A stretch of DNA of 36,645 nucleotides from Nitrospirota bacterium. GTDB taxonomy: Bacteria; Nitrospirota; Thermodesulfovibrionia; Thermodesulfovibrionales; Magnetobacteriaceae. Position 1 is the first letter of the stretch, and each line of letters begins with the position of its first letter. Of the stretch, positions 8,894-36,645 are shown piece by piece. The notes below the pieces were generated by a model, which worked only from the letters and a program-made list of their open reading frames with translations, was not told where the DNA came from and ran no database searches. The position numbers were made by a program, and so were the translations under genes. Location of the stretch: NCBI GenBank assembly GCA_015233015.1, contig JADFYO010000035.1:1-36645 (forward strand), in the 5' to 3' direction.

Positions 8894-9078
8894 TAGAAAT
8901 AAGAAGACTTGAATTGTCCTGAAACAATCGAATTGTCCTGAAACAATCGAATTGTCCTGAAACAATCGAATCATCCTGAAACAATCGAATCATCCTGAGC
9001 TTGTCGAAGGATGCTCCTTTCTTTATCATTTCCCCATAAATCGGCAATCCTTCGACAGGCTCAGGATGATTCTTTAAC
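8894..9078. repeat. REP-like inverted-repeat element, copy 1, with 19-bp tandem array
   Basis: Two 24-base arms (8988-9011 and 9048-9071) are inverted copies with one mismatch. They share the core CATCCTGAGC-TGTCGAAGGA. The loop contains TCATTTCCCCATAAATCGG, also found in copy 2 at 36332-36523. The left arm is preceded by four tandem 19-base units (8911-8986) of GAATTGTCCTGAAACAATC, the last changed to GAATCATCC..., so the tandem unit appears derived from the arm itself. A leading TAGAAATAAGAAGACTTGAAT is also shared with copy 2. No coding potential. Confidence 0.85.
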
Positions 9079-9334
9079 ATGATAATTGTTACTTCTATGG
9101 TTGCAACGTCGTATTAGGGAAACATAAAGATGAACATGTGTACATTTTTATCGGGGTAACATCACCTGTCGAAAATTACAAGGCACTCACAGCTGTAACT
9201 AATGTCACATAATAATTTAATCTTGTCCGGCTATGATAATTTAAGTTTACATGCCGTGAATTACTCATTTACATTTTAGGTAAAACTATGGTAAATTCGT
9301 AACACACGCTGTATTAATTTTGGGGAGGTAGAAA
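9079..9334 (+). other. Intergenic region upstream of the hydrolase gene
   Basis: AT-rich, no gene seen. TGTAAC at 9194-9199 followed by TGTCAC at 9203-9208 resembles, imperfectly, the paired boxes found upstream of 13672 and 18542. TTTACA (9268-9273) with TAAATT 18 bases on is a weak promoter candidate. GGGGAGG just before ATG 9335 is the ribosome site of the next gene. Confidence 0.35.
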
Positions 9335-10281: not shown

Positions 10282-13200
10282 ATGGCAGCGGCGGTATTAT
10301 CGAAGATAACGGCTCCGGATCTTGACAGGGTTATAGAGCGGGAGTTGTGTTTTCGTACCATAGACAAGTCCCTGCATAAGCGGGTCGTCTGGGTATCTGC
10401 CCCCGGCGGCTCTGGAAAGACCACATTGGCAGCAAGCTATCTTAGAAATCGCGGCAATCCCTTCATTTGGTATCATATGGATGAAATGGACATTGACGCG
10501 GCCTCTTTTTTCTATTATATGAGCCTTGCCGTTACAATGCTGCCGCGCCAAAAGAAACAAATAACGCTGCCGGAGTTTTCCTCTGAATATTTTAATAATG
10601 TACAGGGCTTCGCCGCGAGATATTTTAAACAACTATTCTCCGGTATTAAAGAATATAACGGTTCAAAGGAAACTAATGCCCCGTTTGTAATCATTTTCGA
10701 TAATTATCAGAATGCCCCCGTGGATTCGATAGTTCATGACCTAATAGTGAGAGGACTTTTTCCCATGATGCCAGAGGGATTTGCCGCTTGCTTAATAAGC
10801 AGGGGTGAGCCTCCAATCGAATATGCGGAAATCAGGAGAAACGACGGTTTGGGCCTTGTCGAATGGAATGATCTTCTATTTACCCTGGATGATACCTTAA
10901 GGCTGGTCAAGGCATCTACGAAGACCGGGGTGCCGGATGATGTAATCAGGCAGTTACACAAAAAAATGGACGGCTGGGTGGCTGGACTTACTTTAGCAAT
11001 CGAAAGAGGCGACCTTGCGTCTTTTATTACGCATTTTGAAAGTACGGGTGTAAATGAGGCTATTTTTGATTACTTTGCCAGTGAGATATTAGAAAGTGCT
11101 AAACCAGTAGAGCGGGAGTGTCTGCTTAAGACCGCATATCTTAAAGAGTTCAGCCTTCCAATGGCAGAAAAATTAACCGGCTGCAGTCAAACCAATAAAA
11201 TATTGTCAAAGAAACACCGCCAGTTTTTTCTTACCCAAAAACAGACAGACAGCGGCCTGATATTTCAATATCATGATTTGTTCTATGATTTTTTACGTGC
11301 ACGTGCAAAAGAACACTTCACTAAGCAGCGCGAAAGTGAGATTGTAAACAAGGCCATCGATATTTTAGAAGAGAACGGACATTTCGAGGCCGCCGCCCAA
11401 CTGTGCATAGAAACTTCTGACATAGAAAAACTTTCATCCCTAATGCTTAAGCACACCGCGCCGATGATTGCACAGGGTAGAGGCGCTATGTTAGAGAAAT
11501 GGTTTACCGCGATTCCCAATAATTTTATTGCAGACCAGCCGTGGCTGCTTTATTGGAAAGGTATGACCAAGCTGCAAAGTAATCCCAAGTTGGCGCGTGA
11601 AAGTCTTGAGGCTGCGTACGCGAAATTCAAATCTGCAGATGACCCCGAAGGTTTATTTTCGGCGTTTTGCGCCGTTGTAGAGACGTTTATTTATGAATGG
11701 AAGGATTTTCATCCTCTGGATAACTGGATTGATGAATTTGATATAATGGCGAAACGGTTTACGATTGCCTCCACACCGCTTTTTTCACCTGAGCTTAGAA
11801 AGCGAATAACTATAAGCGTATTCTCCGCGCTTGTGTTCCGGCAGCCAAATCATCTGAACATGCCTTACTGGGAGAATAAGGCGTTGAAGATATTACGTAG
11901 TTCCCAAAATATTATCCAGCTGATGTCGCTTGGGCATACAATAATTCTTTACTATCTCTGGACCGGCAAAACATACAAGGCCGGTACTATAGTAGATATG
12001 CTTTCTCCTGTTATTGAAAAGACAGAAGGACATGTATTACCAAGATTAATGTTCTACAGGTCAAAATCGTTATATCTTTGTTATATTGCCTCATATAAAG
12101 AGAGCCAGATGGTTGTTGATGGTGCCTTAAATCTTGCAGAAGAGTACGATATGCACATGCTGGATTTAATGTTTTACGGTATGGGTATTTATAATTCCAT
12201 CCCCGTCGGTAATAATGAGATTGCGGAAGATAATCTCAGTAAAATGGAATCCTCTATGAACAGCGTTCAGTGTTATGCACAGATATTGTATAATAACATG
12301 GCCTCGCTGGTAGCCCTAAGCCGTGGAGATTACTCTTCAGCTATTGAACACGATGAGTTAGCAGTAACATTAATGTTAGAAGCCGGATTACCTTTATCAG
12401 TTGGAATTTTTAAAATGATGTTTGCGTATGTACTAATTGAAGCCGGACAGTTTGACAAGGCAAGGCATCAAATAAAAGACTGCCTTAATCTCGCCGCTAC
12501 TAATGGAAGTACGCCTTTCTATGAATATACAGGCCAACTGTATGAGGCCATGATAGCCCTCTATGAAAATGACGAAGGGCAATTTGCCAAAAAACTTACA
12601 AGCTCCATTATAGTTTCAAAAACTATGGGGATGAGGTACACTTGCTCGCTGCAAAGCTCTATGAAACGTCTATGTACGGCAGCCCTCGAAAGAAATATCG
12701 AACCGGCCTTCATTAAAGATTGGATCAGAGACCATAATATTACCCCCGGAGACTATAAGCATGATAACTGGCCTTATCCCATAAAAATCCATACTCTTGG
12801 GAGATTCGCAATAGAAATAGACGGCAAACCAGTCAAATTCACGGGCAAAACGCAGAAAAAGCCACTCGAAATGCTGAAGGCGGTCATAGCCCTTGGAGGA
12901 AAAGATGTCGGCATTACGCAGTTGTCAGACGCCCTATGGCCAGACGCCGACGGCGACGCGGCGGCAACATCTTTTCGCACGACCATGCATCGCCTTAGAA
13001 AACTCCTCAGTGCCGATTATGAAATAATTCTTTCGTCTGACAGCTATATATCTGTTAATCCCGACTACTGCTGGATAGACGTGTGGGTCTTGAGGGATAT
13101 TATAGATGAATTCAAAAAAATGATAGCGTTACCGGACGCCGCACAAAAAACATACGAACTATTCAACAGAGCCTCAAGTATTTATAAAGGCGGCTTCCTT

Positions 13201-13527
13201 CCGGGTGAGCAGGAACATTCGTGGGCCGAACACTATAGAGAACAACTGAAGGATGACTTCGTCAATCTTTGTAGTAAGGCCGGGACATTTTACGAGGGTA
13301 TTGGTGACTGGAACAAAGGCATAGAGTGTTATAAATCGGCGATAGAGGCGGACAACCTTAGGGAGGAGTGTTACAGGCGCACGATAACATCTTACCTGAG
13401 GGCCGGGTTGAAGCCGGAGGCCATTGCCATATACAACAAATGTAAGCAAACACTTAAAACGCAATTGGACGTCAGCCCATCTGCGGAGACAGAGAAACTG
13501 ATGAAGCCGATAGTGAAAGCCGAATGA
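10282..13527 (+). CDS. Giant STAND ATPase/SARP-type transcriptional regulator, copy A
   Basis: 1081 residues. A MalT-like N-terminal NTPase has Walker A APGGSGKTT (40-48) and a Walker B-like FVIIFDNYQ near 137. A long helical, TPR-like middle follows (about 350-820). From about 834 comes an OmpR-type winged helix (IHTLGRFAIEIDGKPV, then LWPDADGDAAATSFRTTMHR near 885) and a bacterial transcriptional activation domain (BTAD) of TPR helices to the end. This is the AfsR/SARP arrangement, a signal- and ATP-dependent activator. The start has AAGGA about 10 bases upstream. The N- and C-terminal thirds are nearly identical to the copy at 14568, with the middle diverged. It probably forms one transcript with the hydrolase gene. 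Its signal is unknown. Confidence 0.9.
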   Translation: MAAAVLSKITAPDLDRVIERELCFRTIDKSLHKRVVWVSAPGGSGKTTLAASYLRNRGNPFIWYHMDEMDIDAASFFYYMSLAVTMLPRQKKQITLPEFSSEYFNNVQGFAARYFKQLFSGIKEYNGSKETNAPFVIIFDNYQNAPVDSIVHDLIVRGLFPMMPEGFAACLISRGEPPIEYAEIRRNDGLGLVEWNDLLFTLDDTLRLVKASTKTGVPDDVIRQLHKKMDGWVAGLTLAIERGDLASFITHFESTGVNEAIFDYFASEILESAKPVERECLLKTAYLKEFSLPMAEKLTGCSQTNKILSKKHRQFFLTQKQTDSGLIFQYHDLFYDFLRARAKEHFTKQRESEIVNKAIDILEENGHFEAAAQLCIETSDIEKLSSLMLKHTAPMIAQGRGAMLEKWFTAIPNNFIADQPWLLYWKGMTKLQSNPKLARESLEAAYAKFKSADDPEGLFSAFCAVVETFIYEWKDFHPLDNWIDEFDIMAKRFTIASTPLFSPELRKRITISVFSALVFRQPNHLNMPYWENKALKILRSSQNIIQLMSLGHTIILYYLWTGKTYKAGTIVDMLSPVIEKTEGHVLPRLMFYRSKSLYLCYIASYKESQMVVDGALNLAEEYDMHMLDLMFYGMGIYNSIPVGNNEIAEDNLSKMESSMNSVQCYAQILYNNMASLVALSRGDYSSAIEHDELAVTLMLEAGLPLSVGIFKMMFAYVLIEAGQFDKARHQIKDCLNLAATNGSTPFYEYTGQLYEAMIALYENDEGQFAKKLTSSIIVSKTMGMRYTCSLQSSMKRLCTAALERNIEPAFIKDWIRDHNITPGDYKHDNWPYPIKIHTLGRFAIEIDGKPVKFTGKTQKKPLEMLKAVIALGGKDVGITQLSDALWPDADGDAAATSFRTTMHRLRKLLSADYEIILSSDSYISVNPDYCWIDVWVLRDIIDEFKKMIALPDAAQKTYELFNRASSIYKGGFLPGEQEHSWAEHYREQLKDDFVNLCSKAGTFYEGIGDWNKGIECYKSAIEADNLREECYRRTITSYLRAGLKPEAIAIYNKCKQTLKTQLDVSPSAETEKLMKPIVKAE

Positions 13528-14567: not shown

Positions 14568-17500
14568 ATGGCAGCGGCAGTATTATCGAAGATAACGGCT
14601 CCTGACCTTGACGGGGTCATAGAGCGGGAGGCGTGTTTTCGCGCCATAGACAAGTCCCTGAATAAGCAGGTTGTGTGGATCTCTGCCCCGGGCGGCTCTG
14701 GAAAGACTACCCTTACCGCAAGCTATCTCAAAAACCGCGGCAATCCCTTTATCTGGTATCATATGGATGAAATGGACATTGACGCGGCCTCGTTTTTTTA
14801 TTATATGAGCCTTGCCGTTACAATGCTGCCGCGCCAAAAGAAACAAATAACGCTGCCGGAGTTTTCCTCTGAATATTTTAATAACGTACAGGGCTTCGCC
14901 GCGAGATATTTTAAACAGTTGTTCTCTGGTATTAAAGAATCGACCGATTCAAAGGCAACTCACGACCCGTTTGTAATCGTTTTCGATAATTATCAGAGCG
15001 CCCCAGCGGATTCAATCGTTCATGACGTCATAGTAAGAGGACTTTTTCCCCTGATGCCGGCGGGATTTGCCGCTTGCGTAATAAGCAGGGGTGAGCCTCC
15101 GATTGAATATGCGGAAATCAGGAGAAACGACGGTCTGGGCCTTGTCGAATGGAATGATCTTCTATTTACCCTCGACGACACCTTAAAGCTGGTCAAGGCT
15201 TCTACGAAGACCGAGGTGCCGGAGGCAATAATCAGGCAGCTGCACAAGAAAATGGACGGCTGGGCTGCCGGATTGACTTTGGCAATTGAAAGAGGAGACA
15301 TCGCGTCTTTTATTTCCAATATTGAAAGCACGGGTACTGATGAGGCCATATTTGACTATTTTGCCAATGAGATATTAGAACAGACCGAACCCGTCGAGCG
15401 TGAGTGCCTTCTTAAGACCGCGTATCTTAAGGAATTCAGCATTCCCATGGCAGAGAGATTAACCGGCTGCGGGCAGACCTATAAGATATTATCAAAGAAG
15501 CACCGCCAGTTTTTTATTACCCGGAAGCATACAGACAGTGGACTTATGTTCCAGTATCACGATCTTTTCCATGATTTTTTACTATCTCGTGCCAAAGAAC
15601 ACTTCACTAAGCAGCACGAAGGTGAGATAACGCGCCGTGCCGTGGATGTTTTAGAGGAGAACGGGTATTTTGAAGCTGCCGCCCAACTCTGCATAGACAC
15701 TTCTGACATAGAAAAACTCTCGTCCATTATGCTTAAGCATACCGCGCCGATGATTGCCCAGGGACGTGGCGCTATGTTAGATAAATGGTTTACCGCTATT
15801 GCCGATGATTTTATCAAAGACCAGCCGTGGCTGCTTTATTGGAAAGGCATGACCAAGCTGCAAGCCAATCCCGCTCTGGCGCGTGAAAGCCTTGAAGCCG
15901 CATATACGAAATTCAAATCAATGAATGACCCTGAGGGTTTATTTTCAGCGTTTTGTGCTGTTGTGGATACGTTTATTTATCAATGGAAGGATTTTCATCC
16001 TCTGGATAATTGGATTCAGGAATTTGATATAATGGCGAAATTATATGATTTTGCATCCACACCGCTCATTTCACCAGAGCTTAGACACCGGACAACCATA
16101 AGCATATTTTCGGCGCTTATGTACCGGCAGCCAGGGCATCCAAGAATATCCTACTGGGAAGAGGAGGTTTTAAAGATATTACGCGGTTCTCAAAACATTA
16201 TGCAGCTTATGTCTCTTGGGCATACTATCGTCATTTACTATCTATGGACTGGCAGAATTTACAAGGCCGGTGTTGTAGTAGATATGCTGTCTCCAGCTGT
16301 TGAAAAGACAACGGGACACGCATTACCAATATTGATGTTCAACAGGTCAAAATCGTTATACCTGTGTTATACCGCTTATTACAAGCAGAGCATGATGCTT
16401 ATAGAGGAGAGTTTGAAGATTGCGCAAGAATATGATATTCACATGTTTGATTTAATGTATTACAATATCGGTATTTATAATTCCCTCTCTGTTGGCAATA
16501 ATGAGATAGCAGAAGAATATCTAAAAAAAATGGAATCTGTTATGAACAGTGTGCAGAGTTTTACCCAAATTTTTTATCATCACTTTACCTCACTTGTGAC
16601 ACTCAGCCGTGGAGATTACTCGTCAGCTATCGAGTACAATAAAATAGCAATAGAATTACGTACAGAAGCCGGCATCTCCTATACGCCTTATGAATATAGT
16701 CATGCGTATATATTGGCAGAGACTGGACAGTATGAGAAGGCAAGGCAGTATATAAAAAAGTGCTTTAATACAGGGGCTGTTAACGGAAGTACGCTCTTCT
16801 TTAATTATACTTGCCCGATGCTTGAAGCATTAATAGCCTTGTACGAAAATGACGAAGTACAATTCGTCGAAAAAATTACAAGTGGCATTGGCGTTTCAAA
16901 GGCAATGGGGATGAGATTTACGGTTTTTTTGCAAAGCGCCATGAAACGTCTATGTACGGCGGCCCTCGAAAGGAATATCGAGCCGGATTTCATTAAAGAC
17001 ATGATCAAAGACCATAACATTACCCCCGGAGACTATAAGCATGATAGCTGGCCATATCCGGTAAAAATCTATACACTGGGAAGGTTCTCGATAGAAATAG
17101 ACGGCAAACCAGTCAAATTCTCAGGCAAGACGCAGAAAAAACCACTCGAAATGCTGAAGGCGGTCATAGCCCTTGGAGGAAAAGACATTAGTATTACGCA
17201 CTTATCAGACGCCCTGTGGCCTGACGCTGACGGCGACGCTGCGGCGACATCTTATCGCACCACACTTCATCGTCTTAGAAAACTCCTCAGTGCCGATTAT
17301 GAAATAATTCTTTCGTCTGACAGCTATATTGCTATTAATCCCGACTACTGCTGGATAGATGTATGGGTCTTAAGGGATATTATAGATGAGTTTAAAAAAA
17401 TGATAGTGTTATCAGACGCCGGGCAAAAGATATATGAATTATACGATAAGGCTGTAACAATATATAAAAGCGGCTTCCTTCCGGGCGAACAAGGCCAGCC

Positions 17501-17807
17501 GTGGGACGAACACTATCGAGAACAACTGAAGGATGAGTTCGTCTATCTTTGTAGTAAGGCTGGGACATTCTACGAGGGTATTGGTGACTGGAACAAAGGC
17601 ATAGAGTGTTATAAGGCAGCGATAGAGGCCGACAACCTTAGGGAGGAGTGTTACAGGCGCACGATAACATCCTACCTGAGGGCAGGGTTAAAGCCCGAGG
17701 CCCTTGCCCTATACAACAAGTGTAAGCAAACATTTGAGACACAATTGGGCGTCAGCCCATCGGCGGAGACAGAGAAATTGTTTAAGTCGATAATGAAAGC
17801 TGAATGA
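14568..17807 (+). CDS. Giant STAND ATPase/SARP-type transcriptional regulator, copy B
   Basis: 1079 residues with the same order as copy A: Walker A APGGSGKTT (40-48), FVIVFDNYQ, a TPR-like middle, a winged helix (IYTLGRFSIEIDGKPV, LWPDADGDAAATSYRTTLHR) and BTAD. The paralogy reaches upstream: AGGAATCATAGAAC before the ATG is identical in both, and AAGACAAGAC recurs just after each preceding gene. DNA identity is patchy. For example 14799-14884 matches 10513-10598 base for base (86 bases), while residues of about 540-810 differ widely. This mosaic suggests duplication followed by gene conversion at the ends or diversifying change in the sensor part. It ends convergently, 40 bases from the toxin gene on the other strand. 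Confidence 0.9.
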   Translation: MAAAVLSKITAPDLDGVIEREACFRAIDKSLNKQVVWISAPGGSGKTTLTASYLKNRGNPFIWYHMDEMDIDAASFFYYMSLAVTMLPRQKKQITLPEFSSEYFNNVQGFAARYFKQLFSGIKESTDSKATHDPFVIVFDNYQSAPADSIVHDVIVRGLFPLMPAGFAACVISRGEPPIEYAEIRRNDGLGLVEWNDLLFTLDDTLKLVKASTKTEVPEAIIRQLHKKMDGWAAGLTLAIERGDIASFISNIESTGTDEAIFDYFANEILEQTEPVERECLLKTAYLKEFSIPMAERLTGCGQTYKILSKKHRQFFITRKHTDSGLMFQYHDLFHDFLLSRAKEHFTKQHEGEITRRAVDVLEENGYFEAAAQLCIDTSDIEKLSSIMLKHTAPMIAQGRGAMLDKWFTAIADDFIKDQPWLLYWKGMTKLQANPALARESLEAAYTKFKSMNDPEGLFSAFCAVVDTFIYQWKDFHPLDNWIQEFDIMAKLYDFASTPLISPELRHRTTISIFSALMYRQPGHPRISYWEEEVLKILRGSQNIMQLMSLGHTIVIYYLWTGRIYKAGVVVDMLSPAVEKTTGHALPILMFNRSKSLYLCYTAYYKQSMMLIEESLKIAQEYDIHMFDLMYYNIGIYNSLSVGNNEIAEEYLKKMESVMNSVQSFTQIFYHHFTSLVTLSRGDYSSAIEYNKIAIELRTEAGISYTPYEYSHAYILAETGQYEKARQYIKKCFNTGAVNGSTLFFNYTCPMLEALIALYENDEVQFVEKITSGIGVSKAMGMRFTVFLQSAMKRLCTAALERNIEPDFIKDMIKDHNITPGDYKHDSWPYPVKIYTLGRFSIEIDGKPVKFSGKTQKKPLEMLKAVIALGGKDISITHLSDALWPDADGDAAATSYRTTLHRLRKLLSADYEIILSSDSYIAINPDYCWIDVWVLRDIIDEFKKMIVLSDAGQKIYELYDKAVTIYKSGFLPGEQGQPWDEHYREQLKDEFVYLCSKAGTFYEGIGDWNKGIECYKAAIEADNLREECYRRTITSYLRAGLKPEALALYNKCKQTFETQLGVSPSAETEKLFKSIMKAE

Positions 17808-17847: not shown

Positions 17848-18192
17848 CTATTTCAAATCCAGTAGGTCTCTTAATGAGCTTTCCATTGATAGAATATCAT
17901 TTTTAGAGAGCTTTCCTAATCTCAATAAAATTAGTGATCTATCAATAGTCGAAATGGCAGCCTTTATTGATGATGGTTTTAACAAACCTGCTTCATGCCA
18001 ATCAGTAATTAGGCATTGTCCTATTCCGCTGGTTTTCCATGTTTGGCTCGTAACTGCCATGATAACAACATCAGAAGAGATATTATTGTAGATATTTGAG
18101 CTTATGATTACTGCAGGTCGTTTCTTAAGGGTATTATGGTTACTAAAGGGGAAAGGAACAAGAACAACATCTCCCCTTTCACAGACTGTCAT
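17848..18192 (-). CDS. PemK/MazF-type mRNA interferase toxin
   Basis: 114 residues from ATG at 18192, chosen because CERGDVVLVPFPFSN directly follows it; upstream in-frame Met codons would run through the antitoxin gene. The family signature is visible: RGDVVLVPFPF, KKRPAVIIS, VVIMAVTS and the C-terminal LLRLGKLS. MazF/PemK proteins cut mRNA at short sequence motifs. The start codon lies inside the last codons of the antitoxin gene (14-base overlap), which implies translational coupling, antitoxin first. Confidence 0.88.
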   Translation of the reverse strand: MTVCERGDVVLVPFPFSNHNTLKKRPAVIISSNIYNNISSDVVIMAVTSQTWKTSGIGQCLITDWHEAGLLKPSSIKAAISTIDRSLILLRLGKLSKNDILSMESSLRDLLDLK

Positions 18193-18376
18193 AAACAGCA
18201 TCCTCATCGTTATTCCAGACTGCATCAAATACAGGACCCGACAGCTCCTGATAAGTTTTAACGAGAAGAGTTTTTTCCTTTTTCACTTCAATAAATTGAA
18301 TATAGTCAAAAACCTCTGCCAGAAGATTCTCCGGCAGTTTATCTATCTCGCTTTTAATCATATCTTTAACAGACAT
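18179..18376 (-). CDS. Antitoxin of the PemK/MazF pair (DUF2281-like)
   Basis: 65 residues from ATG at 18376, with GGAGG five bases upstream; a GTG two codons earlier lies within the ribosome site and is not used. The sequence MSVKDMIKSEIDKLPENLLA followed by EVFDYIQFIEVKKEK resembles DUF2281-type antitoxins (short helical N-terminus, then a linker). The acidic tail AVWNNDEDAVYDSL would fold on the toxin. The N-terminal part presumably dimerises or binds DNA. It precedes and overlaps the toxin gene. Confidence 0.78.
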   Translation of the reverse strand: MSVKDMIKSEIDKLPENLLAEVFDYIQFIEVKKEKTLLVKTYQELSGPVFDAVWNNDEDAVYDSL

Positions 18377-18814: not shown

Positions 18815-18823
18815 CGCAGGGTT

Positions 18824-18896
18824 GAGCCGCTAGCTCAGCTGGTAGAGCACCGCCCTTTTAAGGCGGGCGTCCTGGGTTCGAATCCCAGGCGGCTCA
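18824..18896 (+). tRNA. tRNA-Lys (anticodon TTT)
   Basis: Full cloverleaf: acceptor GAGCCGC/GCGGCTC with discriminator A, D arm GCTC...GAGC, anticodon arm CCGCC-CTTTTAA-GGCGG with anticodon TTT, and T arm CTGGG-TTCGAAT-CCCAG. The 3' CCA is not encoded. Confidence 0.96.
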
Positions 18897-18902
18897 TAAT
18901 GC

Positions 18903-18980
18903 GTCCCTATCGTCTAGCCCGGCCTAGGACGTCGGCCTTTCACGTCGATAACACGGGTTCGAATCCCGTTGGGGACGCCA
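18903..18980 (+). tRNA. tRNA-Glu (anticodon TTC)
   Basis: Acceptor GTCCCTA pairs with TGGGGAC (one G-T pair), anticodon arm TCGGC-CTTTCAC-GTCGA with anticodon TTC, T arm ACGGG-TTCGAAT-CCCGT, discriminator G and an encoded CCA at 18978-18980. It lies 6 bases after tRNA-Lys, so both derive from one precursor. Unlike its neighbour it encodes CCA. Confidence 0.95.
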
Positions 18981-19092: not shown

Positions 19093-19579
19093 TCACTGAA
19101 TTTTTTTAAAGTCTTCCTGTACTTCTTTCTTTGCCTCTACATGAAAGGGTCTTGGTACTATTTTTCTCCAGCCATTACTCTTAAGAAGTCTATAGATTGT
19201 TGTTTTGTGAACTGGATGCCCTAAGGCCTGCTCAAGAGCACTCTGAATTTCTTTAGCAGTAGCTATCTTACCAGTAAGAGCTCTCTCCCGTTCGAGACGT
19301 GCTTTTTCCTCCTCTATCGTCAAATAACAACGACGCCTTCCTCCTTTCCCTGGTCTTTCAACTACTATAGGGCCTATACGATTGTATTCGGAAATCAGAT
19401 TGTGTACCGTTTGTTCTGCAAGTCCGGGATGCAGAGCAATCTCTTTGACTGGTCTTGGAGCTATCAGTGCATTGAGTAAACCCAACCATTTTTGCACACG
19501 CCTGCCATGCTTCTATGTGTCCCTTCCAATAGCTGGACGCCTTTGAGACTGATTCCTTCTTCCCTTTGCTCGTCATCAT
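19093..19579 (-). pseudogene. IS630-family transposase remnant, frameshifted, catalytic domain lost
   Basis: The frame starting at ATG 19579 (AGGAGG upstream) gives SYWKGHIEAWQAC and then leaves frame near 19497. The next frame carries the helix-turn-helix region of IS630-type transposases (QKWLGLLNALIAPRPVKEIA, GLAEQTVHNLISEYN, a winged-helix TIYRLLKSNGWRKIVPRPFH) and stops at 19093 after VQEDFKK. The DDE catalytic domain that should follow (starting around an EDFKKN motif) is absent. Two lesions are thus seen: an internal frameshift and a 3' truncation. No terminal inverted repeats could be identified. It lies beside the tRNA pair. Confidence 0.78.
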
Positions 19580-19651
19580 GAACCTCCTGCTTTCGGCTCA
19601 TTATGACATCTAACTTTCCCCTTGTAAAGATGGGTTCTTGACGCTTACATT

Positions 19652-20446
19652 TTAACTGATGTCTGTGGCATCTCCATTTTGTTGTATTATAAATTTATCC
19701 ATAAGCACTATTTTATCGTGAGTATCTTTATCAGATTCCTTGTTGATATCAATTTCAATGCCACCGATGTAAATGATGTCTATCTCATCTGTTTTAGCAA
19801 GTTTTATAAGCTGTTGCTTTATCCATGGAATTTGGTCACGATATGAGTTAATCGTAACCTCTAATAAATCATGACCAAGTGGCTTCTGTTTTATATTATG
19901 AATGTTAATAGTTTTTTTTATATACCTGCTAAGCGCTCTCAGGTCAAAATCCGAGGGCATTTTCATCCCTTTAACTATTTGATCATAACAAGACTTTATA
20001 GCCCCACATGCAGGAGTAGAACTGTCGTGTCCGTATCTTACAAACGAACCGAACTCTTCTGTGTTGCCGTTATAGCCTATATGTGATAAGTTTAAAATCA
20101 TCAGCTTATCATCTTCTTTTACCGGCACATGATGTGCAGCTGGCAAGAGGCTCTCATAAGTCTTTATTTTAGGTAAAAATATCCCTCCAAAAAGACGCAT
20201 ATTGTAGAATTTTTCTATTTGAATTAAAGTATCGTTATCAATAATTGAATGATAAAACCTCCTCATCTCGTGCTTTATATTGTCTATGACTGTAGTGCAT
20301 TGCTCATCAAGACAGTTTATTACAACCACAACTACATTAACCCCAAGATATACATTATATCTTTCCATTATACTATGGATAACTTCACACAACTGGTGTA
20401 TATCTATTGCCTTTATAAGAAAATTGTCAGCCGACACTTGTTCCAT
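19652..20446 (-). CDS. LCIB/C-like (beta-carbonic-anhydrase fold) family protein
   Basis: 264 residues, GGGAG before ATG. No exact family name is certain, but landmarks of the LCIB/C family, first described in algal CO2-concentrating systems, appear in order: AAHHVPVKEDD (103-113), LNLSHIGYNG with His122, a variable loop with FVRYGHDSSTPACGAIKSC (Arg137, Cys147) and a C-terminal IIYIGGIEID (about 224-233) followed by a hydrophobic strand ending KFII. In that family the His of HIG and Cys of ACGA help bind zinc. Some family members interconvert CO2 and bicarbonate; others are inactive. The local sequence is AT-rich. The next gene upstream is a coiled-coil protein on the same strand, 150 bases away. 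Confidence 0.5.
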   Translation of the reverse strand: MEQVSADNFLIKAIDIHQLCEVIHSIMERYNVYLGVNVVVVVINCLDEQCTTVIDNIKHEMRRFYHSIIDNDTLIQIEKFYNMRLFGGIFLPKIKTYESLLPAAHHVPVKEDDKLMILNLSHIGYNGNTEEFGSFVRYGHDSSTPACGAIKSCYDQIVKGMKMPSDFDLRALSRYIKKTINIHNIKQKPLGHDLLEVTINSYRDQIPWIKQQLIKLAKTDEIDIIYIGGIEIDINKESDKDTHDKIVLMDKFIIQQNGDATDIS

Positions 20447-20574
20447 ATTTATATCTCCCGTTTCAGAGTATCAAACCATCCTATTAGGCTATCCGCAGAT
20501 AAAGTGTAGCAGTAGTTTATATAAAGTGGCAAGCTTCTCAGCCTGCCTAATCCATAGTGAGTATAGCCGTTCTC

Positions 20575-20612
20575 TTATAAAAAAAGAAACGGGGTTCACT
20601 CCCCCTTTTCCT
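20575..20612 (-). terminator. Possible terminator after the coiled-coil gene
   Basis: On the minus strand a short GGGG-AGTGAA-CCCC stem overlaps the stop codon of the coiled-coil gene and is followed by GTTTC and a run of seven T. The stem is short, so the call is tentative. Confidence 0.35.
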
Positions 20613-21606
20613 GTTCCCTTATAATCACACGCTGCCCTGAAGCACCTTCAATAGCCTTTACCGCAATATCTCGCACCTGAAGTCCAGCCTCGCTTGCCCT
20701 TTGCGTAAGCTGGCGGATCATCTCATCCTGCTCCTTGATTTTAGCCTCCAGAGATGCAACCATCTGTTTATTGAGTTTTCTCTCGCCCTCAATTTCCTTC
20801 GATAGAAGTGCTGCCTCGTGCTTATATTTTACTTCCAATCCACTCAGAACTGCCTTCTCTGTATCTTTGACAGCCTTTTCTAGTTCCGAAGGGAATGATG
20901 CAGCCTTGGCTTTTAACTCGTTATACTCTTTCTCCTTTGCCGCAAGTGCAGACACTCTTTCTGCTATATCCCTGTTAAAGGCTTCGCGTTTTTCTTGTAG
21001 TTCTTTTTCTTGGGCCGCCTTTTTAGCCTCGTATTCGTCGGTCTCTTTCTTCTTTTTCAACTGGAAACTGTAGTTATACTCCTCCTCGGCACGCTGTTTC
21101 TCTTTTTTGGACAGAGCATCTTTTTCTTTTGCCGTTGCCTCGTACTCCGCCTGCTCCTTTTTCCACAGAAGTCTCTTTTCGGTTATTTCGTCTTCCAGAG
21201 CTTGTCTCTTTTGAGTTATCTCCGACTCAAACTTCTCCTTTCTCTCCTTCTGAGCCAACAACAATGCCGCGAGGCTGTCAGCGTTGACCGCTATTTCATG
21301 CACTTCCTCAAGGTTTCTCTTTTCAATGCTAATAGCCTGCTGAAGGCCAGTCAGGGTTTTATATTCGGCAATGAGTTTCTCCTCAAGGCCGTCAAGCGAA
21401 TTCACGATATCAACTTTGATGTTCGCAAGGTTCTTTACAATCTTCTCCATACTGGTATCCGATGCAACCTCTACGATCTCCTTCTCTTCATGTTTCTTCT
21501 TTTCAGCCTGCCTATCGATGGTTTTTTGCTCCCTGACTTTGACCAATAACTCGTTATAGGCAGCCAGTATCTCATTTTTCGTGCTTTTTGACATGTCCTT
21601 TTCCAT
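20596..21606 (-). CDS. Long coiled-coil protein, function unknown
   Basis: 336 residues. Apart from a short N-terminus and C-terminus, residues of about 15-300 are rich in Lys, Glu, Ala and Gln with regular heptads (for example EKEIVEVASDTSMEKIV, EKRLLWKKEQAEYEATAKE, QEKELQEKREAFNRDIAERV). It has no signal peptide or membrane segment. The C-terminal ASGQRVIIREQEKGE is polar. No enzymatic motif is visible. It may be a cytoplasmic scaffold or filament-forming protein. GGGGGAA stands before ATG 21606; ATG 21594 is an alternative start. The downstream gene on this strand is the LCIB-like protein, and a possible terminator lies between the two. Confidence 0.7.
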   Translation of the reverse strand: MEKDMSKSTKNEILAAYNELLVKVREQKTIDRQAEKKKHEEKEIVEVASDTSMEKIVKNLANIKVDIVNSLDGLEEKLIAEYKTLTGLQQAISIEKRNLEEVHEIAVNADSLAALLLAQKERKEKFESEITQKRQALEDEITEKRLLWKKEQAEYEATAKEKDALSKKEKQRAEEEYNYSFQLKKKKETDEYEAKKAAQEKELQEKREAFNRDIAERVSALAAKEKEYNELKAKAASFPSELEKAVKDTEKAVLSGLEVKYKHEAALLSKEIEGERKLNKQMVASLEAKIKEQDEMIRQLTQRASEAGLQVRDIAVKAIEGASGQRVIIREQEKGE

Positions 21607-24410: not shown

Positions 24411-24478
24411 TCACGGTCAATCCGTCTGTTATCCTAAAATCAAGGATGTAGAAAAATATCAAATTTGGAGGAATGAAT

Positions 24479-27400
24479 ATGAAAAGGACAATAATGGCAG
24501 CAGGGTTAGTGGTTGCATTGATTTATGCGTTAGCAGGGATAGTCTTTGCCGGTGAGAGCCTGAAATCTGTACAGTTAAATTCAGCTATCGAGGCTGCCGG
24601 GGCGAAATGGCAGGCAAGTGAGACGCCTTTTTCGGCTTTGACATCAGAACAGAGGAAAAACCGCTTAGGACTTATCGAAGCGGATTATGGCGACACATCG
24701 AGAATTGCTTACGCCCCACTACCTCAGGGGGCAACCCTGCCGTCAAGCCTTGACTGGAGAAACAACAATGGTAATTGGGTTACTTCTGTGAAAGATCAGG
24801 GAAACTGCGGCTCTTGCTGGGCATTTGCCACGACGGCGGCCTTAGAATCCTATACATTGATAAAAAAGAACACCCCTGGCGTGGACTTGGATTTATCTGA
24901 ACAGGTGCTGCTGTCATGCGGCGGCGCGGGCAGCTGTGCCGGTGGTTATGTTACCTATGCCTCAGACTTTTTACGCAACTATGGCGAACCGGTGGAGTCT
25001 TGCTACGCATACACGGGAACAAATGGTTCATGCTCCAGTGCATGCGGAAGCCGCACATCGGCCGCTGACACCATAAGCTCGTGGAAGCTGGTTTCAACTT
25101 CTTCTACCACTTCCGATATGTTAAGAAACGCCCTCAACACATATGGCCCATTAGTTGTTACGATGTCTGTTTACGATGATTTCTTTTACTATAACGGCGG
25201 AATATATAGCCACGTTTACGGCGCTTATGAAGGCGGCCATGCGGTATTACTCGTGGGTTACAATGACGCACAGCAATATTTTATAGTAAAAAACTCATGG
25301 AGTTCATACTTTGGTGAAAACGGTTACTTCAGAATAGCGTACTCTCAGGTTGGTGGCGCAGTATCCTTCGGCGCTACCACAATAGCGTACCCGCAGCCAT
25401 CGCCCACGCCCACACCGGCGCCTATGGCGGTAACTCCGACGTCATTAACCGTAGGGTCAGGCAAATCGGGCACCGTCACAGTATCAGGCGGGCAGACCCC
25501 ATACACAGCCAGCTCCGCAAGCACTCAAATTGCAACCGCATCGGTAAGCGGCACGACTGTTACCATAACCGGCGTTGCTACCGGTTCCACGACTATCACA
25601 GTAAAAGACAACGCAGGCAGCAGCAAGACCGTATCGGCAGTCGTAACAGCCCCATTAGTGGTAAGCCCAACCAGCGTTAATGTTACAACCGGCAAGACGG
25701 CAACATCGGCTGTCAGCGGCGGCACTGCCCCCTATAAGGTATCCTCTTCAAGCGCGACTGTGGCAACGGCGGCCATAAGCGGCAGCACCGTTACCATAAC
25801 CGGAGTTGCCAGCGGCACATCCACTATAACCGTCACGGACAATAACAGTGTAACCGCAACAATCAGTACAACCGTAACAGCCCCATTAGCGGTAAGCCCA
25901 ACCAGCCTTACCGTTGCGGCTGGTAAGACGGCAACCGCGGCAATAAGCGGCGGCACGGCGGCCTATTCGGCATCGTCATCAAACGCGGGCGTTGCAACGG
26001 TATCGGTAAGCGGCAGCAGCGTTTCTATAACCGGTGTAGCCAGCGGCACATCCACTATAACCGTTACCGACAATAATAAGACAACGACAACAGTAAGCGT
26101 TACAGTGACAGCCCCGGTAGTAGTAAGCCCAACCAGCATCGGCGTTGTAACCGGCAAGACGGCAACCGCGGCAATAAGCGGCGGCACGGCGGCCTATTCG
26201 GCGTCGTCATCGAGCAATAGTATTGCAAGCGTCTCGGTAAGCGGCAGCACAGTTACAATAACCGGAGTTGCCAACGGCTCGGCCACTATAACCATTACTG
26301 ACAAAAACGGCCTGACCGCGGCAGTTGGCGTTACCGTAACAGCCCCATTAGCGGTAAGCCGAACCAGCATTCTCGTTGTAACCGGTAGTTCGACATCGGC
26401 AACTATAAGCGGCGGCACTGCCCCCTATTCGGCATCGTCATCGAGCAATAGTGTTGCAACGGCATCGGTAAGCGGCAGCTCTGTTACTATCGCCGGTGTT
26501 AGCAGCGGCACATCCACTGTTACCGTTAAAGATAAGAACGGCCTGACCGTATCGGTAAGCGTTACCGTAACAACCCCGGTATCAGTCAACCCGACCAGCC
26601 TTAGTGTCGTAACCGGCAAGACGGCAACGGCGGCAATAAGCGGCGGCACGTTGGCCTATTCGGTATCGTCATCAAACGCGGGCGTTGCAACGGTCTCGGT
26701 AAGCGGCAGCACCGTTACAATAACCGGCGTTGCAAGCGGCACGGCGACTATAACCGTTACCGACAAAAACGGCCTGACCGCGGCAGTAAGCGTAACCGTA
26801 ACAGCGCCATTAGCAATCAGTCCAACCAGCGTTACCGTTGCAGCCGGCACGACGGGGTCGGCAGCCATAAGCGGCGGTGCCTCGCCATATAAAATATCAG
26901 CCATCTCTTCACAAGCAGCATCGGCAAGCATCAGCGGCAGCACCCTGACTATCATTGGCTACTCCGCCGGTACAGCCTCTATAACCGTTGCCGACAAGAA
27001 CAATAACACTGCTGTTGTGAATGCCACTGTAACTGCCCCATTATCAGTTAGCCCGATGAGTATCAGACTTCCTGCGGGCACTTCAACCACCGCGACTATC
27101 AGCGGCGGGTTACCGGCCTATACGGCAACGTCTGGAAATACAAAGACAGCAACCGTAAGCCTCAGCGGCAGCACAGTTACCGTAACCGGCGTTGCTACTG
27201 GAACAGTATCTATTACTATCCTGGACAAGAACAACGGGATAGCGTCTATCGGCGTAACCGTAACAGCCCCGTTAGCGGTTGACCAGAGCAGCCTCAGCGT
27301 AGTAACTGGCAAGTCGGCAACTGTAAACGTCAGCGGAGGTACTGCCCCATATTCAGTGTCGTCTTCAAACACGAAGACAGCAACGGCAAGCATCACTAAC

Positions 27401-27958
27401 GGTATTGTTACCGTAACCGGCGTTTCCGCAGGCACGGCTACTATTACCGTTACCGACAAGAACAATACAACGGTATCTGTCAGCGTTACTATAAATACCC
27501 CTGTAGTGGTAAGCCAAAGCACCATCAGCGTCATTGCCGGCAAGACGGCCTCTGTGTCTATCAGCGGTGGCACTGCCCCATATGCAGTATCGACAAGTCT
27601 GAAATTAGCGACGCTTAGCATCAGCGGCGGCACTCTTACAATAACCGGAGTTACCACAGGTATCACCACTATTATCGTGACCGACAAGAACAACACTCAG
27701 GCTGCTATCACCGTTAGTGTAACTCCCCCATTGGCAGTCAGCCAAAGCAGTGTCAGCGTCATTGCCGGTAAATCGGCATCTGTGAACGTCAGCGGAGGTA
27801 CAGTACCTTATGTGGCAGCGTCTGCAAACACGAAAATAGCGACGGTAAGCATAGCCAACGGCGCAGCTACGCTAACCGGAGTTGCCAAAGGTTCTACTAC
27901 AATTACCGTTACCGACAAGAACAATACTCAGTTAACTGTTGGTGTGACCGTTCAATAA
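24479..27958 (+). CDS. Secreted papain-like (C1A) cysteine protease with 11 Ig-like repeats
   Basis: About 1159 residues. ATG 24479 is preferred to ATG 24473 because GGAGG is 7 bases before it. A signal peptide (MKRTIMAAGLVVALIYALAG) ends near VFA. A short propeptide follows (SALTSEQRKNRLGLIEADYG), then a C1A catalytic domain (about 88-305) with WRNNNG, the oxyanion Gln in VKDQGNCGSCWAF with nucleophile Cys113, His254 in GGHAVLLVGY and Asn272 in VKNSWSSYFGENG. After a Pro/Thr linker (PSPTPTPAP) come eleven repeats of about 77 residues resembling bacterial Ig-like domains. Ends in QLTVGVTVQ, with no LPXTG or beta-barrel anchor, so it may be released or held by other factors. Likely a cell-surface or extracellular protease. 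Upstream palindromes suggest control by the neighbouring Crp/Fnr protein. Confidence 0.9.
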   Translation: MKRTIMAAGLVVALIYALAGIVFAGESLKSVQLNSAIEAAGAKWQASETPFSALTSEQRKNRLGLIEADYGDTSRIAYAPLPQGATLPSSLDWRNNNGNWVTSVKDQGNCGSCWAFATTAALESYTLIKKNTPGVDLDLSEQVLLSCGGAGSCAGGYVTYASDFLRNYGEPVESCYAYTGTNGSCSSACGSRTSAADTISSWKLVSTSSTTSDMLRNALNTYGPLVVTMSVYDDFFYYNGGIYSHVYGAYEGGHAVLLVGYNDAQQYFIVKNSWSSYFGENGYFRIAYSQVGGAVSFGATTIAYPQPSPTPTPAPMAVTPTSLTVGSGKSGTVTVSGGQTPYTASSASTQIATASVSGTTVTITGVATGSTTITVKDNAGSSKTVSAVVTAPLVVSPTSVNVTTGKTATSAVSGGTAPYKVSSSSATVATAAISGSTVTITGVASGTSTITVTDNNSVTATISTTVTAPLAVSPTSLTVAAGKTATAAISGGTAAYSASSSNAGVATVSVSGSSVSITGVASGTSTITVTDNNKTTTTVSVTVTAPVVVSPTSIGVVTGKTATAAISGGTAAYSASSSSNSIASVSVSGSTVTITGVANGSATITITDKNGLTAAVGVTVTAPLAVSRTSILVVTGSSTSATISGGTAPYSASSSSNSVATASVSGSSVTIAGVSSGTSTVTVKDKNGLTVSVSVTVTTPVSVNPTSLSVVTGKTATAAISGGTLAYSVSSSNAGVATVSVSGSTVTITGVASGTATITVTDKNGLTAAVSVTVTAPLAISPTSVTVAAGTTGSAAISGGASPYKISAISSQAASASISGSTLTIIGYSAGTASITVADKNNNTAVVNATVTAPLSVSPMSIRLPAGTSTTATISGGLPAYTATSGNTKTATVSLSGSTVTVTGVATGTVSITILDKNNGIASIGVTVTAPLAVDQSSLSVVTGKSATVNVSGGTAPYSVSSSNTKTATASITNGIVTVTGVSAGTATITVTDKNNTTVSVSVTINTPVVVSQSTISVIAGKTASVSISGGTAPYAVSTSLKLATLSISGGTLTITGVTTGITTIIVTDKNNTQAAITVSVTPPLAVSQSSVSVIAGKSASVNVSGGTVPYVAASANTKIATVSIANGAATLTGVAKGSTTITVTDKNNTQLTVGVTVQ
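25427..27955 (+). repeat. Eleven tandem ~231-bp repeats (Ig-like domains)
   Basis: Units begin with variants of AVSPTSLTV (AVTPTSLTV, VVSPTSVNV, AVSPTSLTV, VVSPTSIGV, AVSRTSILV, SVNPTSLSV, AISPTSVTV, SVSPMSIRL, AVDQSSLSV, VVSQSTISV, AVSQSSVSV) and contain SGGTAPY, VSGSTVTITGVA and TITVTDKN segments. DNA similarity is high among units 2 to 6 and falls towards the end, where the lead motif changes from SPTS to SQSS. In-frame expansion by recombination is likely. Confidence 0.9.
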
Positions 27959-36331: not shown

Positions 36332-36523
36332 TAGAAGTAAGAAACCTTGAATCTATAGAAGTAAGAAACCTTGAATCTATAGAAGTAAGAAAACTTGAAT
36401 CATCCTGAGCCTGTCGAAGGATGCTCCTTTAAGTCTCATTTCCCCATAAATCGGAACCCCTTCGACAGGCTCCGTCCTTCGACAGGCTCAGGATGATTCT
36501 ATTAACAGGATGATTCTATTAAC
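36332..36523. repeat. REP-like inverted-repeat element, copy 2, with tandem arrays
   Basis: Perfect 24-base inverted arms at 36398-36421 and 36475-36498 (core CATCCTGAGCCTGTCGAAGG), a loop with the same TCATTTCCCCATAAATCGG as copy 1, and an extra partial right arm at 36459-36473. The left side carries two full and one partial copy of a 24-base unit starting TAGAAGTAAGAAACCTTG (36332-36379, then from 36380). The right side carries AGGATGATTCTATTAAC twice (36490-36506, 36507-36523). Confidence 0.85.
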
Positions 36524-36645
36524 CTAAAAACGGCAGTTAAGTATCAAAAGCAGTTGGCATAAGTGCAAAATAAAATGGTTGAGCAGGTTGTTTTTGCAAA
36601 ATTAATCTAAAAGCGTAAGAGATAATAATCTTCATTTTTTCTGCA
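36524..36645. other. Intergenic, nothing recognised
   Basis: AT-rich sequence after the REP-like element, without a gene or a clear promoter or terminator. The stretch 36238-36331 before the element is equally empty apart from a small CGTC-AGGAT-GACG hairpin. Confidence 0.4.

Follow-up and report, generated by a model that had tools for sequence, protein, structure and literature searches.

The LCIB family is known from algal pyrenoids and CO2-concentrating systems, and its role there is still argued. SulP–carbonic anhydrase fusions also exist, and BicA-type pairings combine a SulP-STAS transporter with a carbonic-anhydrase-type partner. The nearest structure to the protein described here is PtLCIB4 of Phaeodactylum (5b5y, 5b5z and 5b60). 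According to passages in two articles, purified LCIB and LCIC of Chlamydomonas had no activity although the site was present (PMC5876011; PMC8825250), and a passage of the former suggests that disorder of His162/161 and Arg194/193 may explain this inactivity.

Here, we analyzed a gene in a stretch of 36,645 nucleotides (the window; contig JADFYO010000035.1 of assembly GCA_015233015.1) from a Nitrospirota bacterium of the Magnetobacteriaceae. Its features are listed in Table 1; the open reading frame starts with ATG, and its coordinates include the stop codon. The protein shares with PtLCIB4 the fold and the predicted positions of zinc ligands (H106 corresponding to H88, and C147), but the two are only about 15% identical, and PtLCIB4 has Ser47, and CrLCIB an Arg, where the window protein has Leu46. 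The operons of its relatives are similar to BicA-type pairings in that a SulP-STAS transporter has a carbonic-anhydrase-type partner. However, the partner here is of the LCIB type and is accompanied by a cytidylate-kinase-like gene and two-component proteins.

Table 1. Features of the LCIB-like gene and its flanks (window coordinates).
Feature	Coordinates	Strand	Basis or remark
LCIB_C_CA-type carbonic-anhydrase-fold protein, 264 aa	19652..20446	-	ORF, Pfam, predicted folds
Cys45 codon, predicted zinc ligand	20312..20314	-	Invariant in 27/27; aligns with C of canonical-LCIB CxDE
Asp47 codon, predicted Asp of Asp-Arg pair	20306..20308	-	Invariant in 27/27
His106 codon, predicted zinc ligand	20129..20131	-	Aligns with PtLCIB4 H88 / CrLCIB H162
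Arg137 codon, predicted Arg of Asp-Arg pair	20036..20038	-	Aligns with CrLCIB R194
Cys147 codon, predicted zinc ligand	20006..20008	-	Alignment; invariant in 27/27
RBS-like GGGAG, 8 bases 5' of the LCIB ATG	20455..20459	-	Within similarity block ending at 20462 or 20468
Terminator-like hairpin between coiled-coil and LCIB genes	20528..20547	-	Consensus match only; 3 found in the region against 3.0 expected
Coiled-coil protein gene, same strand, 5' of the LCIB gene	20596..21606	-	Judged an incidental neighbour
Short ORF with transposase-type helix-turn-helix (HTH_33, Tc3-like), likely insertion-sequence remnant	19093..19497	-	Pfam
tRNA-Lys and tRNA-Glu genes	18823..18980 (18823-18897, 18903-18980)	+	tRNA search

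A divergent LCIB-family protein and its predicted zinc site

The sequence-only reading had assigned the protein to the LCIB/C type from the order of its motifs, and AAHHVP, SHIGY, VRYGH, ACGA and IGGI are indeed present in that order. The Pfam scan matched PF18599 (LCIB_C_CA) at 43.3 bits, above the cut-off of 25, with an E-value of 3.4e-11; the match spanned only residues 103-238 of the protein and positions 71-210 of the profile. Because the score exceeded the cut-off and none of the 14 control genomes matched in the LCIB family search, the match is not a chance one. The NCBIfam scan of the protein returned no match, and phmmer with the single window sequence found nothing in the PDB at E up to 10; the latter blank indicates that the protein has strongly diverged.

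We predicted its structure with AlphaFold2 in two ways. Model A1 was built from the protein's own subfamily only (13 rows; mean pLDDT 78.8, pTM 0.84). Its nearest structure was PtLCIB4 (5b5y; Z 20.8, rmsd 2.9, 224 residues aligned; Foldseek E 8.5e-11), followed by CrLCIB (5k5w; Z 17.6) and ordinary beta-carbonic anhydrases (Z about 12). Thus, the LCIB-type fold was recovered, and not another one. Model A3 (27 rows, pLDDT 80.0) combined 13 of the 15 subfamily copies, omitting the near-duplicate G005 and the partial G002, with 14 canonical hits, omitting near-duplicates and fragments. It matched PtLCIB4 with Z 22.8 over 228 residues, a higher value that is not independent of the LCIBs because canonical ones were in its alignment, whereas A1 is independent. 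A profile–profile comparison of the subfamily with the 14 canonical Nitrospirota LCIBs gave an E-value of 1.6e-11.

In the joint alignment, 14 columns were invariant in all 27 sequences, including C45, D47, H106, R137 and C147. Canonical Nitrospirota LCIBs (e.g., L005, G051) thus share all 14 columns, the five catalytic ones among them, with the window protein, as well as the CxDE motif, but their motif reads CRDE, their identity to the window protein is 18-23%, and the window protein has additional residues at about 64-84. From the alignment, C45, H106 and C147 are predicted to be zinc ligands and D47-R137 the Asp-Arg pair; the protein would presumably bind zinc. The roles of the residues were drawn from a review (PMC5876011) and from the names of PDB entries. 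A numbering check identified CrLCIB His162 as the His of SHSP and Arg194 as the Arg of SRPGR, and these align with H106 and R137. The entry names 5b5z (H88A) and 5b60 (S47R) place PtLCIB4 His88 on H106, and C147 aligns with the PtLCIB4 Cys that precedes a Gly. For the N-terminal half, including Cys45, the alignment comes from profile and model alone, the Pfam match being at residues 103-238.

Position 46 is Leu in the window protein and Leu or Pro in the subfamily (Pro in L107), and its equivalent is Arg in CrLCIB, CrLCIC and the canonical Nitrospirota LCIBs. We would guess from the PDB entry name that the S47R change lowers PtLCIB4 activity. Beta-carbonic anhydrases (PF00484) resemble the protein in overall fold and in the Cys-x-Asp start of the motif. 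However, its Asp-Arg pair is completed by R137, some 90 residues further on, and not by the Arg of CxDxR, a motif that is absent (the sequence reads CLDEQ), and PF00484 did not match the protein. By profile, fold and catalytic residues, the window protein therefore belongs to the LCIB/C family, as a divergent bacterial form.

We then surveyed its distribution. A scan of 84,980 species genomes with two peptide patterns gave nine loci, none of them outside Nitrospirota. Among these were loci of Ca. Magnetominusculus sp. LBB02 at 88% identity, Ca. Magnetominusculus xianensis HCH-1 at 78% and Ca. Magnetomicrobium cryptolimnococcus at 56%. We take the host to be a magnetotactic species near Ca. Magnetominusculus. 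Within the taxonomic family, 13 of the 19 genomes had a subfamily hit at E up to 0.001 (12 strong, and a weak one in G012), with 15 strong copies in all and one weak one (G012); because copies and genomes are related, these counts are not independent. Relatives were found neither in the viral contigs nor in the plasmids that were searched. The setting had been called unexpected, but the LCIB family exceeded the Pfam cut-off in 57 of 395 Nitrospirota genomes, and the host group is described in a passage of PMC8353452 as autotrophic through the Wood-Ljungdahl pathway. Thus, the setting no longer appears unusual.

Transporter operons and receiver fusions in relatives

Of the 15 copies, seven closed an operon that also contains genes for a SulP anion transporter and a cytidylate-kinase-like protein. 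Within the window's genus, the order is SulP-STAS, Cytidylate_kin2, LCIB (G000:C55, G003, G005, G004:C51 and G001); the SulP of G004:C51 is cut by the contig end, and G001, whose contig stops beyond the kinase-like gene, was counted as operonic with only that neighbour visible. In G011 and G016, which represent two genera, Pfam identified further operon genes ahead of LCIB: one for a receiver-fused second Cytidylate_kin2, one for a dCache histidine kinase and one or two for receivers. The window-genus operon has neither a histidine kinase nor a receiver. The other eight copies, including that of the window, stand outside a SulP operon, the contig of G002 being too short to tell. Neighbour labels outside the Pfam-scanned proteins come mostly from BLAST to labelled references.

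The Pfam scan found no receiver domain in the window protein. All four copies of this type in genus g3 (G008, G014, G016:C48 and G018) carry a Response_reg domain fused to LCIB, and Response_reg scored 101.8-104.6 bits in the three fusions scanned (L020, L021, L023). The fusions of G008, G014 and G018 stand apart from SulP, and in two of these genomes, G008 and G018, a receiver-like gene immediately precedes the fusion. The receiver part of the G014 fusion shares 61% identity with the stand-alone receiver of G010, whose operon contains SulP, the kinase-like gene and a histidine kinase. SulP-STAS itself is fused to a response-regulator receiver at L104:7735-13022 and L053:5908-8418.

G015 does not have the subfamily, and both of its SulP/Cytidylate_kin2 pairs adjoin a gene for Pro_CA_2, a different family of predicted carbonic anhydrases. 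These Pro_CA_2 genes (L101:7881-8306 and L102:7807-8232) converge on the pairs. In a PDB search, the nearest solved relative of the operon SulP was the plant Sulfate transporter 4.1, and the bacterial entry 6ki1 (BicA) scored lower. For this reason, the substrate of the SulP may be sulfate.

The canonical LCIBs of the phylum have different neighbours. At the 12 canonical loci with flanks, an SLC13-type gene was within two genes of LCIB in eight (this label was Pfam-tested on L141 alone and otherwise assigned by BLAST cluster), a CitMHS-type antiporter-like gene was found at seven and an Na/Ca exchanger at two, and two had no transporter; 10 of the 12 were thus beside SLC13-type, CitMHS-type or Na/Ca exchanger genes. 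GntR, CBS, histidine-kinase and receiver genes also recur there. Canonical LCIBs differ in this from the window's subfamily with its SulP: their neighbours are Na/Ca exchangers or genes of the SLC13/Na_sulph_symp, CitMHS antiporter-like, CBS and GntR types. At L139-L146 and L150, we observed recurrent Na_sulph_symp, CitMHS, CBS, GntR-UTRA, PPDK_N/PEP-utilizer and two-component genes.

A third divergent type is represented by the weak G012 protein, which by eye retains CSDE, a His-His stretch and DCG, and which adjoins a SulP-STAS-receiver fusion and a PAS histidine kinase. At further loci of this type, L151 has SulP and CitMHS and L152 has neither, so that the type is near SulP at two of three loci. 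As the transporter types vary by branch, different LCIB branches accompany different ion transporters.

We also observed a conserved cluster that combines a pair of Na/Ca exchangers and an HMA_2 P-type ATPase with HMA_2 and DUF5132 proteins and a pair of T2SSE-like ATPases (L047:877-10158, L048:8961-18863, L109:6863-15315, L110, L111 and L112; also L148 and L149). This Na/Ca-exchanger/P-type ATPase cluster, to which the window-type LCIB may be tied, flanks that gene in G004 and G006; in G000 it is on another contig, with no window-type LCIB. In G238 and G282, about 13 bases separate a canonical LCIB from a related Na/Ca exchanger.

The window gene is a new divergent member of the LCIB family, and the SulP/two-component operon and the receiver fusion appear to be new for that family, judged by our literature search, which found no paper describing this subfamily, its SulP operon or the receiver fusion. 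Searching for LCIB with histidine kinase and response regulator returned only a comparison of Chlamydomonas strains, and among papers on magnetotactic Nitrospirae and carbonic anhydrase none was on this subject by title. In a term search, LCIB, PF18599 and Nitrospir were absent from the main text of a 2026 survey of microbial carbonic anhydrases (PMC13098186).

Proposed function and alternatives

The operon and fusion context suggests that bacteria handle or sense dissolved inorganic carbon with the LCIB family. The best explanation of the window protein, and in our judgement the probable one, is a zinc protein of the carbonic anhydrase fold that converts or senses CO2/bicarbonate and is tied to anion transport. 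The LCIB protein would interconvert CO2 and bicarbonate in the cytoplasm, or bind them as a signal, and the substrate of the SulP would then be bicarbonate. In autotrophic magnetotactic Nitrospirota, the family may thereby set or report the pool of inorganic carbon that the transporter serves. The receiver-fused LCIBs and the operons with a histidine kinase and receivers would represent a signalling branch. Against this explanation stand the inactivity of purified Chlamydomonas LCIB and LCIC, the plant sulfate transporter as the closest solved structure to the SulP, and the eight of 15 copies, that of the window among them, outside a SulP operon.

Bacterial alpha-carbonic anhydrases are often periplasmic, and the window genome encodes one. 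Pro_CA (PF00484) had no match in any of the seven genomes of the genus, and neither Pro_CA nor Pro_CA_2 matched in the window genome. Because the alpha-carbonic anhydrase is present, the predicted carbonic anhydrase activity of LCIB is not unique in that genome, and we rejected the idea that LCIB is the sole carbonic anhydrase of the cell.

A broader reading, which we put forward tentatively, is that bacterial LCIBs form the carbonic-anhydrase or sensor part of inorganic-carbon modules linked to Na+/anion transporters in non-photosynthetic autotrophs, with one branch in the window's taxonomic family acting as a receiver-fused CO2/bicarbonate sensor. This is based on the transporters beside 10 of 12 canonical loci, the SulP operons of seven of 15 copies in the window subfamily and the two of three loci of the third type. 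Such a bacterial branch, with the full catalytic set, transporter operons and a receiver fusion, would permit a direct test of LCIBs as catalysts or sensors, and would suggest that autotrophs using the Wood-Ljungdahl pathway for CO2 fixation have an inorganic-carbon system.

The receiver fusion and the operons with histidine kinase and receivers also accord with a sensor that has no catalysis, in which the zinc site binds CO2 or bicarbonate and a conformational change is passed to the receivers or the histidine kinase. Passages on Chlamydomonas LCIB and LCIC, inactive despite their site, point the same way (PMC5876011; PMC8825250). However, the full catalytic set is retained in the subfamily, position 46 is Leu or Pro and not the Arg of CrLCIB, CrLCIC and the canonical proteins, and the window-genus operon has no kinase or receiver. 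We regard a purely non-catalytic sensor as rather unlikely.

Some enzymes of the carbonic anhydrase fold hydrolyse COS or CS2. In a sulfur-cycling bacterium, a hydrolase of this kind might stand near sulfate-family transporters, and the neighbouring families, SulP here and Na_sulph_symp at the canonical LCIBs, are named for sulfate. But the closest structures are LCIB proteins and then beta-carbonic anhydrases, and the same SulP/kinase pair stands in G015 beside Pro_CA_2, a second family of predicted carbonic anhydrases. Sulfur chemistry is thus a distinctly improbable role, and conversion or sensing of CO2/bicarbonate is the function that we prefer.

The window copy and its surroundings

The window gene is under purifying selection. 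Against the orthologue of LBB02 (G004), dN was 0.062 and dS 0.447 (dN/dS about 0.14), and against that of HCH-1 (G006), dS was 0.94 and dN/dS about 0.13. The sequence-only reading had noted that the gene is AT-rich, and this is correct (GC 0.342 against 0.463 for the whole window), but its inference of a recent transfer fails. The orthologues of LBB02 and HCH-1 have similarly low GC (0.354 and 0.371; the operon paralogue G000:C55 has 0.434). Because this low GC is common to the orthologues, at dS values of 0.45-0.94, the transfer was not recent, and we rejected that explanation.

In the tree, the window copy grouped with G004:C56, G006 and G016:C17 with support 100/100, and all four copies of this clade are without a SulP neighbour. 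DNA similarity to the LBB02 copy was confined to 19651-20462 and that to G016:C17 to 19652-20468. These blocks consist of the LCIB gene and its ribosome site, and the flanks differ from those in LBB02. The position in the window is therefore new, although the gene itself was not recently transferred; the copy is a stand-alone paralogue that was relocated and still has all five catalytic residues. We read it as an old, mobile-looking paralogue retained for use, and not as a recent arrival. That it should be a decaying or recently captured stray gene with no function, as its isolation, AT-richness and position near an insertion-sequence-like remnant and tRNA genes might suggest, is very improbable given a dN/dS of about 0.13-0.14 against two species, the lack of stops and the four-copy clade at 100/100.

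The LCIB gene does lie downstream of the coiled-coil gene on the same strand, as had been pointed out, but the neighbourhood appears to be incidental. The coiled-coil gene was found in two of the 12 genomes searched, that is, in one of the 11 others (G005), where no other part of the window aligned to its locus (L128) and no LCIB adjoined it. A functional link between the two genes was rejected on these grounds.

Several other genes of the window were also recorded. A PemK/MazF-like gene (17848-18228) adjoins the region of the tRNA genes and the insertion remnant. The genes at 10282-13527 and 14568-17807, with one gene between them, encode long proteins that are related to each other (1081 and 1079 aa), and the second carries a BTAD transcriptional-activator domain. 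A protease of the papain family, encoded at 24473-27958, has a long series of bacterial Ig-like domains. Finally, a short repeat at 8987-9113 and 36379-36547, with several further copies on other contigs in both orientations, resembles a small mobile or REP-like element.
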